Assembly (NCBI RefSeq): GCF_008369915.1
Contig: NZ_VSRN01000001.1
Location: forward strand, 2,972,501-3,036,500
DNA length: 64,000 nt
Direction: 5' to 3'
DNA from: Dyadobacter sp. UC 10
GTDB lineage: Bacteria; Bacteroidota; Bacteroidia; Cytophagales; Spirosomataceae
A program made the translations under genes and the position numbers. A model generated the notes under the pieces. It did not search any database and was not told where the DNA came from. It was given only the letters and a program-made list of their open reading frames with translations. Of this stretch, positions 6,706-9,814 are shown piece after piece (within the stretch, counting starts at the first letter, position 1; every line of letters starts with the position of its first letter).

Positions 6706-7764
6706 TCAGGTATTTGCAAAAAGCAGATGCAACTTTTGTTGTAATACGTTTCGGTCGGGTAGTTGTGTTTTATATTCTGCGACCAGTGCAGGGGAAAGAT
6801 TTCTGCTCAGGGCATATTCGACAACTTCTGAATCTTTGTCTTTACAAAGCAAAATTCCGATACTGGGATTTTCATTATCCTTTTTAACATCGCGGTCCAA
6901 AGCTTCCAGGTAGAAGTTCAATTGGCCCAAATGTTCGGGTTTGAATTTGTCCGCTTTTAACTCAAAGGCAACCAAGCACTGTAAACCACGATGATAAAAA
7001 AGTAAATCTAGTTTAAAGTCGCTATTTCCAACTTGAAGGCGATATTCTTCCCCTATAAAAAGAAAATCCCTTCCTAGCTCCAGAATAAAGCTCTTCATCT
7101 GACTAATAATCGCTTTCTGAAGTGTGGTTTCTTCGTGAGGCTCGGGAATGTTCAAAAATTCCAGAATATAACTGTCCTTAAATACATTGCTGAGATCCTG
7201 TTTTAGTTCTTTCAACGCGGGAGGATGATTGTAGTTACCTAGCATGACCCGTTCGAATGTTCCACTATTAATTTGTCTCTCCAGCTGTTTTACAGAGTAT
7301 CGTTCCTGAATGCAAAGACGCAAATAATATTCCCGCTCTTCCTCTGTTTTAGCTCTCGACAGCAATATCAAATGGTGCGTCCAGCTAAGTTGTGTTAGTA
7401 ACGAATCTCTTATACCTCCATTTTCAAATTGTGTCATCGCCGATGACACAATTTCATTCACTTTTTCATTGCCTTGTTTGGGAGGAGCTGAAAGTATTTT
7501 ACTGCTGGCATAGGTTTCATAAAATTGTTTCATTCTGTACAAACCACGCCGACTGAAACCCTTTAATTCCGGGTGACTTACTTTCAGGTAATTTGCCAGT
7601 TCATCTACGGTTTTTTCACCCCACGAAGCAGCTTCTATTTTGCTACTAATATGTTGCCCAATAAGCCAATAGAGATTGATAAGCGCGGTGTTAACCGATT
7701 GGATAGCGTTTTCCCTGGCGTAGTGGATTAGCTCAATAATATCGGAAAATCTGTTCTCAGGCAT
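6706..7764 (-). CDS. PDDEXK nuclease domain protein, DUF1016/YhcG family
   Basis: 352 residues, the usual length for the YhcG (DUF1016) family. The N-terminal half (about 1-150) is the DUF1016_N helical domain, with the typical IHYARENAIQSVNTALINLYWLIGQ-like start and GFSRRGLYRMKQFY. The C-terminal half is a PD-(D/E)XK nuclease fold, with DLLFYHRGLQCLVAFELK giving the D and ExK elements, then QLNFYLEALDRD. Members are often carried on mobile DNA or near restriction systems. Here it stands alone, and the 37-bp gap to the convergent beta-helix gene is tight. Cellular role unproven for the family. Confidence 0.88.
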   Translation of the reverse strand: MPENRFSDIIELIHYARENAIQSVNTALINLYWLIGQHISSKIEAASWGEKTVDELANYLKVSHPELKGFSRRGLYRMKQFYETYASSKILSAPPKQGNEKVNEIVSSAMTQFENGGIRDSLLTQLSWTHHLILLSRAKTEEEREYYLRLCIQERYSVKQLERQINSGTFERVMLGNYNHPPALKELKQDLSNVFKDSYILEFLNIPEPHEETTLQKAIISQMKSFILELGRDFLFIGEEYRLQVGNSDFKLDLLFYHRGLQCLVAFELKADKFKPEHLGQLNFYLEALDRDVKKDNENPSIGILLCKDKDSEVVEYALSRNLSPALVAEYKTQLPDRNVLQQKLHLLFANT

Positions 7765-7906
7765 AGTGCGTTGTTTTGTCTGGTGAAAACTAAACGATTT
7801 GGGCTTAATGGTTACAAACTTGCACGAAACACGATCGCCGCAACTCTACTTGCACACATCAGCGGAAATTTCGAACAAATTTCTTTTTTCTTCAAATATT
7901 AAAAGT

Positions 7907-7916
7907 TTACTTTGTC
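7907..7916 (+). promoter_or_regulatory. Possible promoter -7 box before the leader ORF
   Basis: A TTTACTTTG-like sequence resembles the Bacteroidota -7 consensus (TAnnTTTG) with one base missing. It lies about 70 bp before the leader ORF at 7988. No convincing -33 TTG was fixed, so this is tentative. Confidence 0.25.
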
Positions 7917-7987
7917 TATCAAATTAATAGGATACTCTGTTAGCCACCAACAGAGATAACTCTTTTAAGTATTTATCATATCTACTT

Positions 7988-8077
7988 ATGAATGCACATT
8001 CAGAACGGATAATTTTTGCGAAGATCATGGTGGCTCCTATCTGCATTTTACCGGCACCGCTTGGTCGCTGTTGTTGA
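7988..8077 (+). CDS. Short leader peptide ending in Arg-Cys-Cys
   Basis: A 29-codon ORF beginning MNAHSERIIFAKIMVAP and ending LPAPLGRCC before TGA. It lies 93 bp upstream of the arylsulfatase gene, inside what must be its 5' leader. The hydrophobic core followed by tandem cysteine codons directly before the stop looks like a translation-sensing leader peptide. Stalling at the Cys codons under cysteine limitation would report sulfur status, which fits a sulfatase downstream. The ORF is open in frame with ordinary codons. That it is translated and regulatory is inference. Confidence 0.6.
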   Translation: MNAHSERIIFAKIMVAPICILPAPLGRCC

Positions 8078-8109
8078 TCCTGCATGGGTCTGCACACCGT
8101 CGCACATTT

Positions 8110-8158
8110 AACTCTTGAGGCGTCTTCTCAGGGCGCGTCCTCTGTTACATTTTTTTAA
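8110..8158 (+). promoter_or_regulatory. Possible attenuator hairpin between leader ORF and arylsulfatase
   Basis: Between the leader stop and the sulfatase start lies an imperfect hairpin: GAGG and CG at about 8115-8121 can pair with CG and CCTC at about 8136-8143. A T-rich run (ATTTTTTT) follows at 8150-8157. This arrangement is compatible with transcription attenuation controlled by the leader peptide. The stem is short, and alternative pairings were not computed. Confidence 0.3.
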
Positions 8159-8170
8159 GCTACTCTTCCT

Positions 8171-9814
8171 ATGAGGATTTCTACATTCTTTACTATTGCA
8201 TTATTGGGCCTTTCCGGAGCATATGCACAGAAAAAGTCCGCCCCAGACCAACGCCCGAACATTATCCTCATTATGGTCGACGACCTGGGATATTCCGACA
8301 TTGGCGCCTACGGTTCGGAAATTAAAACGCCCAATATTGACCAGCTTGCGAGCGAGGGCATCCGTTTCCGCGAATTTTACAACAATTCCATCTGCGCCCC
8401 GACCCGGGCGTCGCTCATTACCGGGCAGTATCCGCACAAAGCGGGAGTAGGTTATTTCAATGTAAATCTGGGCCTCCCGGCCTATCAGGGTTACCTCAAT
8501 AAGGAATCGCTCACGTTCGGCGAGGTATTGCAAAAGGCTGGTTACAGTACCTTGCTCAGCGGAAAATGGCACGTGGGGAACGATAGTCTGGCCTGGCCAA
8601 ACCAGCGTGGTTTCGACCGTTTTTACGGTTTTATCAATGGCGCCAGTAATTATTTTGATATTGGTAAATATGGTAAAGGCCCGAAGGTTGAGCTGGTTGA
8701 AGATAACAAACGTATCCATCTGCCACCCGGTAAATACCTGACCGACGAGATTGCCGACCATGCGATTTCCTTCATCGAAGCGCAAAGCAAAACGCCGAAA
8801 CCGTTCTTTCTATACCTGGCTTTCAATGCGCCGCACTGGCCGCTGCAGGCTTATGAAGAGGATATTGCCAAATACAAAGGCAGATATAGTATCGGCTGGG
8901 ATTCGCTTAGAAATGAACGGATTGAGCGGCAAAAGGCGATCGGGATCACAGATCCAAAACAAGCCCTGGCTAATCGCGATCCGGACGTAACACCCTGGGA
9001 GAATGTGCCTTATGATGAAAAATTACTTTGGGAACGTAAAATGGAGATTTACGCAGCAATGGTCGACCGCGTAGATCAGAACATTGGCAAGCTGCGTGAG
9101 AAGTTGAAGGCATTGAAAAAAGACGATAACACACTCATTGTCTTTATCTCGGATAATGGGGCGCAGGGAGGATATGCCGGTGCGTCGGCGCGCAGGCCGC
9201 AGCGCAATTCCGGTCCGGCGGGGTCGGCCGGATCTTATGCGTACCAGGACCAACCCTGGGCATATGTTTCCAACACGCCGCATGCGAGCTACAAAAACAA
9301 TATGCATGAAGGTGGGATCAGCGCGCCGTTTATCGCCTGGTTTCCCAAACAAATCAAGGCAGGCACCATTGCGAAAGGCACGGCACATTTAATAGATCTT
9401 GCACCCACATTTTACGATCTGGCAAAAGCTACTTACCCTGCTGCCGAAAAGGGTGTCCAGATCAACCCGCTGCCGGGGAAGAGCCTCGTGCCGGTACTCA
9501 CAGGTAAAGCCGGCGAAGTAGAGCGGGGTGAGCCTATTTTCTGGGAGCGCGCCGGCAACCGGGCCGTCCGCAAAGGCAAATGGAAAATCGTGTCAACCTA
9601 TCCTTCCTACAAATGGGAGCTTTATGATCTGGAAACTGATCGCGGCGAAACAGCGGACATTGCCGGCAGCAGAACAGATATCGTAAATGAACTGTCGGCT
9701 GACTATGCAAAATGGGCCGAGCGGACCGGGGTTGTGGATTACGAAAAGATCAAGCCGGCCAACCCGATCGGTGCGCCAGCTGCACGGCCGAACAGGCGCC
9801 CGCCAACTTTTTGA
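8171..9814 (+). CDS. Arylsulfatase (type I formylglycine-dependent sulfatase)
   Basis: 547 residues with a signal peptide (MRISTFFTIALLGLSGAYAQ), so it acts in the periplasm or outside. The sulfatase signature CAPTRASLITG gives Cys75-x-Pro-x-Arg79, with Cys75 converted to formylglycine by a separate enzyme. Metal ligands are visible in IILIMVDDLGYSD (Asp37/38) and VFISDNGAQGG near residue 330. HVGN and NAPHWP supply the usual active-site Lys/His surroundings. Length and domain order are normal for the family. It would release sulfate from sulfated organics or glycans; substrate unknown. An upstream leader peptide ending in Cys-Cys suggests sulfur-responsive control. Confidence 0.93.
   Translation: MRISTFFTIALLGLSGAYAQKKSAPDQRPNIILIMVDDLGYSDIGAYGSEIKTPNIDQLASEGIRFREFYNNSICAPTRASLITGQYPHKAGVGYFNVNLGLPAYQGYLNKESLTFGEVLQKAGYSTLLSGKWHVGNDSLAWPNQRGFDRFYGFINGASNYFDIGKYGKGPKVELVEDNKRIHLPPGKYLTDEIADHAISFIEAQSKTPKPFFLYLAFNAPHWPLQAYEEDIAKYKGRYSIGWDSLRNERIERQKAIGITDPKQALANRDPDVTPWENVPYDEKLLWERKMEIYAAMVDRVDQNIGKLREKLKALKKDDNTLIVFISDNGAQGGYAGASARRPQRNSGPAGSAGSYAYQDQPWAYVSNTPHASYKNNMHEGGISAPFIAWFPKQIKAGTIAKGTAHLIDLAPTFYDLAKATYPAAEKGVQINPLPGKSLVPVLTGKAGEVERGEPIFWERAGNRAVRKGKWKIVSTYPSYKWELYDLETDRGETADIAGSRTDIVNELSADYAKWAERTGVVDYEKIKPANPIGAPAARPNRRPPTF

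Follow-up and report, generated by a model that had tools for sequence, protein, structure and literature searches.

The sulfatase gene described here, from Dyadobacter sp. UC 10, is preceded by a leader that probably belongs to a sulfur-scavenging message with two stacked layers of control: an upstream open reading frame (uORF) that would sense charged tRNA-Cys, placed under promoter-level control by an Rrf2-family regulator. On the comparative evidence laid out below, we give this reading a probability of about 0.76. On the same grounds, the element is a genuine regulatory leader that is conserved among relatives; its general kind is known, its lineage and gene set are new, and the layout of its RNA is unusual. 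It lies in a window (the whole stretch of DNA that was analysed) of 64,000 nucleotides, from a genome of ~6.9 Mb; the features are collected in Table 1. The uORF, which spans positions 7988–8077 and reads MNAHSERIIFAKIMVAPICILPAPLGRCC-stop, is separated by 93 nt from the ATG (8171) of the downstream gene, a sulfatase (PF00884, E = 4.3e-65). This 29-codon ORF had been picked out in a first-pass annotation of the DNA, and proved to be one of a family of 29 non-redundant Dyadobacter leaders. All share a common layout: a palindrome, CTATnnnnTTnATAG, at the promoter, a hairpin (P1) with a CCACC loop, and a uORF that contains a complement of this loop, usually GGTGG.

Table 1. Features of the sulfatase leader, in window coordinates.
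Feature	Position	Strand	Basis
TACTTTG, candidate −7 promoter element	7908..7914	+	invariant in 12 aligned orthologous leaders
Palindrome CTATCAAATTAATAG, candidate binding site for a sulfur regulator of Rrf2 type	7916..7930	+	
P1 hairpin, CTCTGTT / loop AGCCACC / AACAGAG	7935..7955	+	fold, covariation, swap test
Leader ORF (uORF), 29 codons, Gly-Arg-Cys-Cys-stop end	7988..8077	+	ORF reading, relatives' table
uORF stretch TGGTGGCT, complement of AGCCACCA in P1 (7942–7949)	8028..8035	+	duplex −14.7 kcal/mol
Two Cys codons, TGT TGT, directly 5' of the TGA stop	8069..8074	+	
Imperfect hairpin with T7 run (plausible terminator that relatives do not conserve)	8109..8156	+	
Sulfatase gene, 547 aa	8171..9814	+	PF00884

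The sulfatase query against 48 genomes of the genus returned 30 loci, the upstream regions of which were compared. In the UC 10 leader (L089) and seven orthologues (L090, L092, L093, L096, L105, L108, L110), the block TTACTTTGTCTATnnnnTTnATAG and a CCACC-loop hairpin lie 5' of a uORF that is exactly 29 codons long in all eight and ends with 2–4 Cys codons. Five orthologues (L091, L094, L095, L100, L112) carry the block without such a uORF, and at L111 it precedes an adjacent rhodanese–thioredoxin-like gene, itself located 5' of the sulfatase gene (L220); the remaining 16 of the 30 loci have no block beside the gene. Ten sulfatase orthologues (L097–L099, L101–L104, L106, L107, L109) have an AT-rich block like TATATAGAATAAATATATTTTTG near the start codon, which is probably another type of promoter or operator. 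At the genus level, the pattern CTATNNNNTTNATAG-N6-14-TNNNCCACC occurs at 40 sites in 24 of the 48 genomes, against one for the reversed pattern; three of the 40 (L148, L155, L156) do not follow TTTG(T/C) and lie in unrelated contexts. The palindrome–CCACC pattern had three matches in 174 other genomes of the family versus two for its reverse, which is chance level. When the TTTG-prefixed pattern was searched in one genome per species across bacteria and archaea, 29 stretches were retrieved, 27 from Dyadobacter, one from Chryseolinea serpens and one from a Thermoplasmata MAG, the last of which looks like a chance match. The start of the uORF falls at +72 to +78 from TTTG in 30 of 31 homologous rows, the exception being L205 (+91). 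Two types of leader were distinguished. Type I uORFs start with MN..S., have GGTGG at nucleotide offset 41 (11/11) and precede sulfatase (8) or SusC (3) genes. Type II uORFs (15 non-redundant) start with MKA or MNA, have the loop complement at offset 47–50, and are followed by a gene for a 39–40-residue membrane protein in 14 of 15 cases (all but L132) and then by a fatty-acid-hydroxylase family gene.

The uORF had been recorded at first pass as an Arg-Cys-Cys leader peptide, with PLGRCC-stop as the string to look for in relatives. This motif was ruled out: it matches in one of the 48 genus genomes, that of UC 10 itself, and neither Arg nor PLG is therefore conserved; Arg-Cys-Cys is not a conserved unit, as the orthologous ORFs end with RCCC, FCCC, CCCC, SCC or GCC. 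RCC-stop strings were found 50 times in the UC 10 genome versus 23 for the reversed pattern, and as 45 of these 50 are overlapped by an open frame of 600 nt or more on either strand, the bare string is uninformative. What is kept in relatives is the reading frame and its Cys codons. Adjacent in-frame Cys codons are present in 27 of 29 non-redundant leaders, versus a mean of 1.4 and a maximum of 6 in 1000 shuffles; this count covers 29 of the 33 tabulated leaders, the degenerate L120, L260 (for which a different ORF was selected by the script) and L138 and L147 (near-identical to L126 and L130) having been dropped, and as the rows are related sequences the counts are not independent events. In the same 29 leaders, the counts of TGYTGY by frame (0:1:2) are 43:3:1, and all 29 have an uninterrupted frame 0 of 26 codons or more, versus 0 and 12/29 for the other frames. 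A single Cys codon is left in two of the 29 (L134, L137), and L120 has lost its Cys run. Selection on the peptide as a protein was not detected by pN/pS, the values for frames 0, 1 and 2 being 0.70, 0.73 and 0.76 in eight type I leaders and 0.69, 0.72 and 0.68 in 12 type II leaders. The frame and the Cys codons are thus conserved while the other residues drift, as would be expected of a codon-sensing leader peptide and not of a functional protein. Together with the position of this short ORF upstream of pathway genes and the clustering of in-frame control codons for the pathway amino acid (27/29), these are features expected of a leader-peptide attenuator. The first-pass idea of a leader peptide closing with Cys codons, ahead of a sulfate-releasing enzyme and possibly with similar leaders in relatives, found strong comparative support: the homologous leaders precede sulfatase, SusC/D and lipid-hydroxylase operons. 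Conservation of the peptide holds for its frame and Cys codons but not for the rest of the peptide.

P1 was supported by several comparisons. In type I leaders, 96.8% of the cells of the P1 alignment are paired, with both-side changes in three of the seven pairs, versus at most 52.4% for slid versions; this count is based on nine sequences, the 9 of 17 sites taken as gap-free (L091, alignable with one mismatch, was left out), and two of its five shuffle measures were not exceptional (51/500 and 134/500). When the arms were exchanged between 41 non-redundant sites, the cognate combinations paired better than the exchanged ones (0/5000 permutations as good), also within each type. This stem test used 41 of the 43 P1 sites, and the loop test described below 29; L213 (in the genus), L228 and L250 (other organisms) and L260 have CCACC near the palindrome and were placed outside the 43. 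An initial stem scan, in which G-U pairs were allowed and the flanks shuffled, was weakly above its control (mean 7.07 versus 5.41 pairs). RNAalifold returned no P1 pairs in type II leaders, because the aligner shifts the stem against the loop. The pairing between the P1 loop and the GGTGG region of the uORF is stronger than the shuffled-ORF mean in 29/29 leaders; exchanged partners were as good in 1/5000 permutations overall and in 18/5000 for type II, while for type I alone the swap test was not significant (1090/5000). In 22 of the 29 leaders, the loop complement ends 29–35 nt before the Cys codons. Given the sizes of ribosome footprints, it would lie immediately 5' of a stalled ribosome, or be covered by a second ribosome queued behind it.

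Eleven of the 43 P1 sites have no such uORF. In four of these (L094, L095, L100 and L112, the gene start of L112 having been chosen by the analyst as its ATGGTGG), pairing of the loop with the region around the gene start (about −26 to +11) is stronger than in 98% of shuffles; in the seven others, the loop partner is within 95% of shuffles. Type II leaders have a second structure after the uORF, with an outer stem AAATATCCC/GGGATATTT, 26 consensus pairs of which seven show both-side changes, and an invariant inner stretch, TTCGGTGGTTG, which could be an additional pairing partner of the P1 loop. These observations suggest that P1 may choose between pairing partners. A conserved, structured RNA of ~96 nt with the invariant TTCGGTGGTTG stretch precedes the membrane-protein/fatty-acid-hydroxylase operon at L151:4562–4657 (−) and in 13 relatives. 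An Rfam scan of two loci with TTCGGTGGTTG (L151, L125) gave no match of note. Searches for known RNA families gave no riboswitch or leader match up to E 10 in the window leader (7700–8300), where two weak eukaryotic families were returned, and weak, chance-like matches only at E ≤1 in five type I and type II loci (L151, L125, L152, L131, L150).

The palindrome follows TACTTTG at 7908–7914, which is a candidate −7 box of the Bacteroidota type. The exact palindrome together with TTTGT occurs at four sites in the UC 10 genome, before this sulfatase, another sulfatase, SusC/D genes near sulfatases, and a hydroxylase–SusC operon. With one mismatch allowed, two further sites were found, as many as with the reversed control: one has a P1-like hairpin before SusC/D and three sulfatase genes, and the other precedes a SAM riboswitch and a desulfurase-like gene. 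Palindrome sites without P1, in 22 genus genomes, lie before directly starting sulfatases or before SAM riboswitches (48.6 and 48.2 bits, and 44.1 just below the cut-off of 44.4), the latter followed by class-V aminotransferase (desulfurase-like) or redoxin genes. SAM riboswitches directly after the palindrome are located at L276:716–809 (UC 10 genome), L204, L215 and L217, that of L217 scoring slightly under the gathering cut-off. At 13 genus palindrome sites without P1, a homologous Cys uORF was not found; CC-containing ORFs ~270–290 nt away at L194 and L197 were taken as chance.

Outside the genus, the palindrome accompanies genes of the Rrf2 family. In Chryseolinea serpens (L260), which belongs to a second taxonomic family, an Rrf2 gene is followed 40 nt downstream by the palindrome, with CCCACC after it, then by a SAM riboswitch (55.8 bits), a uORF, MKTKTDLPGTIVHAPHLLHSYSNYCCC, ending ...CCC, and a sulfatase gene. 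The SAM riboswitch (RF00162) hence stands between palindrome and Cys uORF in Chryseolinea and after the same palindrome in sister sulfur genes of Dyadobacter, whereas it is absent from the window leader. At L221, which comes from another genus, the gene that follows the palindrome encodes a PLP enzyme of Cys/Met metabolism, and an Rrf2 gene comes next. Proteins related to the Rrf2 protein of L260 were found in 237 of 390 Cytophagales genomes, and in 20 of the 30 loci read (among L287–L308 and L310, from other Cytophagales) the palindrome lies 10–23 nt after the Rrf2 stop codon. It is mostly followed by a small ORF (DUF2061 in one tested) and then by a gene for a 234–247-residue protein, and both 234-residue proteins tested with Pfam are PAPS reductases; located between Rrf2 and PAPS reductase operons, the palindrome accompanies sulfate assimilation next to the Rrf2 gene. 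No homologous Cys uORF was seen in these 30 loci, in which three short ORFs ending with CC look like chance. Rrf2 autoregulation was considered but is not supported: the palindrome was within 150 nt upstream of the Rrf2 gene in 0/30 loci and lies downstream of it, before the next gene. The picture is that of a candidate Rrf2 sulfur regulon with a shared operator-like site at sulfur genes, which adjoins the regulator gene in some genomes and lies upstream of it in none of the 30. These associations make an Rrf2-family repressor the most likely protein to bind the palindrome. Like CymR, the L260 protein is of the Rrf2 family and associated with sulfur genes; against NCBIfam, however, it passes the cut-off for the Rrf2 superfamily and falls far below that for CymR (51.9 of 195 bits), so that by this curated threshold it is not CymR.

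In the proposed mechanism, the first control would be exerted by the Rrf2-family repressor on the palindrome, permitting transcription to start when sulfur is short, and the second by the uORF, whose terminal Cys run would report charged tRNA-Cys. At low cysteine, the ribosome would stall on the terminal Cys codons and stay; with ample cysteine, it would terminate at the uORF stop and leave. Because the last Cys codon adjoins the stop in 19 of the 29 leaders, a long dwell of the ribosome is a more likely signal than a different position. This dwell would shield the RNA after the stop, or change the partner of the P1 loop, so that the sulfatase/SusC operon is expressed, and the switched step may be transcription (for example through Rho) or translation. 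Regarding Rho, 27 of 31 leaders have more C than G downstream of the Cys codons; no C-rich stretch specific to the uORF was found, and as the leader before the ORF is equally C-skewed, no Rho site is claimed. Regarding translation, the predicted accessibility of the gene start did not change consistently when a stalled ribosome was masked (mean 0.529 free and 0.545 stalled; up in 9 and down in 3 of 25 scored, 4 of the 29 leaders having no start recognised by the script). Tentatively, and at less than even odds, we propose a more specific arrangement, a switch without terminator in which the P1 loop (ACCACC) has competing partners and ribosome dwell at the Cys codons decides between them. The partners would be the uORF complement, TTCGGTGGTTG in the lipid-hydroxylase operons and, in some uORF-less leaders, the start region of the gene itself. 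Such a switch would operate under the Rrf2 operator, elsewhere paired with a SAM riboswitch, and sulfur status would then be read as Rrf2 signal, SAM and Cys-tRNA by modules that are interchangeable.

A classical transcription attenuator, in which the hairpin and T-run that follow the uORF act as a terminator and Cys stalling prevents its formation, is quite improbable, and the first-pass observation of this hairpin holds for the window. There, the imperfect hairpin (8109–8147, −12.6 kcal/mol) is followed by CATTTTTTT, with its T7; a terminator scan of 7760–8300 on both strands gave two terminator-like sites, versus 0.5 expected, one of them this hairpin, the region of which folds modestly better than shuffles (z −1.76, 12/200 as good). 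However, neither its position nor its strength is conserved: no conserved terminator was found in the 29 leaders, candidates of −8 kcal/mol or better before a U-rich tail being present in 12/29 at scattered positions. In addition, the last Cys codon is immediately followed by the stop in 19 of the 29 leaders; the RNA covered by a ribosome at the Cys codons would therefore differ little from that covered at the stop, which is at odds with the classical terminator/antiterminator geometry. Of the trp-type arrangement, in which a conserved terminator has an exclusive antiterminator and the control codons are so far from the stop that the ribosome's position counts, neither the conserved terminator nor the distant control codons were seen in these leaders, and type II leaders have another conserved structure.

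It is also unlikely that a structured RNA, either a riboswitch or a protein-binding hairpin, is the regulator, with P1 and its loop partner acting on translation start and the uORF being a passenger or the first controlled cistron. P1 covaries and is also present without a uORF, its loop pairs near the gene start beyond 98% of shuffles in 4/11 uORF-less leaders, and in sister genes the place behind this palindrome is taken by SAM riboswitches; yet the open frame and the in-frame Cys pairs of 27/29 leaders would be unexplained, the window, L151, L125, L152, L131 and L150 match no riboswitch family, and in 7/11 uORF-less leaders the loop partner does not exceed 95% of shuffles. The constant length of 29 codons in 8/8 leaders of the sulfatase group might point to a functional protein, small and rich in cysteine, which could for instance bind metals or thiols. 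We hold this to be very improbable, as pN/pS gives no protein-level constraint, the length, the C-terminal tail and the number of Cys residues vary in the family (two leaders having one Cys), and the two peptides tried had no NCBIfam match. Slimmer still are the chances of an ORF arisen by accident in a conserved promoter or 5'UTR, with incidental Cys codons: the body of the peptide does evolve like non-coding RNA, but the frame and Cys statistics contradict this explanation, and the ...CCC* uORF after the same palindrome in Chryseolinea speaks against it.

The preferred reading, a Cys-tRNA-sensing uORF under Rrf2 control, has parallels elsewhere. Polycysteine leaderless short ORFs are reportedly cysteine-responsive attenuators in mycobacteria, as described by Canestrari et al. 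in 2020. In the accessible parts of PMC13236596 and PMC9031893, where polycysteine attenuators are cited, the resemblance to the Dyadobacter leaders lies in contiguous Cys codons within a short ORF before sulfur genes; the mycobacterial ORFs are leaderless, whereas in Dyadobacter P1 comes first and the ORF starts ~75 nt from the promoter-like TTTG. Judged from sequence alone, the conserved P1 and promoter-like block upstream of the uORF AUG argue against a leaderless ORF. The available sections of PMC1262725 list candidate Cys leader peptides for the cys operons of Mycobacterium and Propionibacterium acnes and for cbs of Bifidobacterium longum, and suggest Rho as the executor; as here, these actinobacterial leaders have Cys runs near the stop, lie upstream of sulfur genes and have no conserved terminator. 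From what these sections describe, the present leaders differ by their phylum, by their sulfatase and SusC/D scavenging genes, by the 5' loop complementary to the ORF and by the palindromic operator before it. The uORFC-8-2 motif before cysS in Rhodobacterales, as far as the available text of PMC8632094 goes, also has tandem conserved Cys codons in a uORF, with regulation by charged tRNA-Cys proposed; its Cys codons are usually at positions 14–15, in a stem, with an intrinsic terminator and an aminoacyl-tRNA synthetase gene, in contrast to Dyadobacter, where no terminator is conserved. Leader-peptide attenuation is given as likely for amino-acid operons of Flavobacterium psychrophilum in the accessible portion of PMC9723704. 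Within the literature searched, partly available and with most subscription journals outside it, no Cys leader was found before sulfatase or SusC/D genes, or in Bacteroidota. The comparative data suggest that Cys-run leader peptides extend to Bacteroidota, with an RNA layout unmatched by Rfam families in the loci scanned.

Sulfatases are usually read as tools for access to the carbon of sulfated glycans. To our knowledge, little seems to be known of how Bacteroidota sense sulfur when deploying their sulfatase and SusC/D repertoires. The leader suggests that some of the sulfatase and SusC/D operons of Dyadobacter are coupled to the supply of cysteine, as genes of sulfur acquisition, and its analysis names the palindrome, the likely class of regulator and the relevant Cys codons.

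The gene content of these operons was assigned with Pfam on representatives and otherwise by visible N-terminal similarity. The fatty-acid-hydroxylase assignment of the type II gene is by PF04116, on L151. Downstream of this gene lies SusC in several genomes and a sulfatase gene in others, and hydroxylase, sulfatases, SusC and SusD are found in one place in the D. koreensis-like G018. Among other leaders, L139 precedes a fatty-acid-hydroxylase family gene, L205 SusC/D and sulfatase-like genes, and L255 a gene for a secreted protein that resembles, by the appearance of its sequence alone, a solute-binding protein. The membrane protein of type II operons is MTxADVxLLVKKIAVGILLTLVPFALIAGGIWLAYTLIS-like and lies ~320–340 nt after the TTTG of the operator (L122, L123, L125 and others). 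A rhodanese–thioredoxin fusion gene is located beside the sulfatase gene, 5' or 3', at L157:2186–2917 (−), L153:4040–4759 and L220:3183–3908; PF00581 and PF00085 were run on L157 only, L153 and L220 being assigned by a similar N-terminus. In the type II operon of UC 10, SusC follows, and no sulfatase was recognised in the 17.5 kb read. After this SusC, at L277:9310–11420, repeated SCDNTNKG-like runs in predicted ORFs suggest a minisatellite, which possibly disturbs the gene located there.
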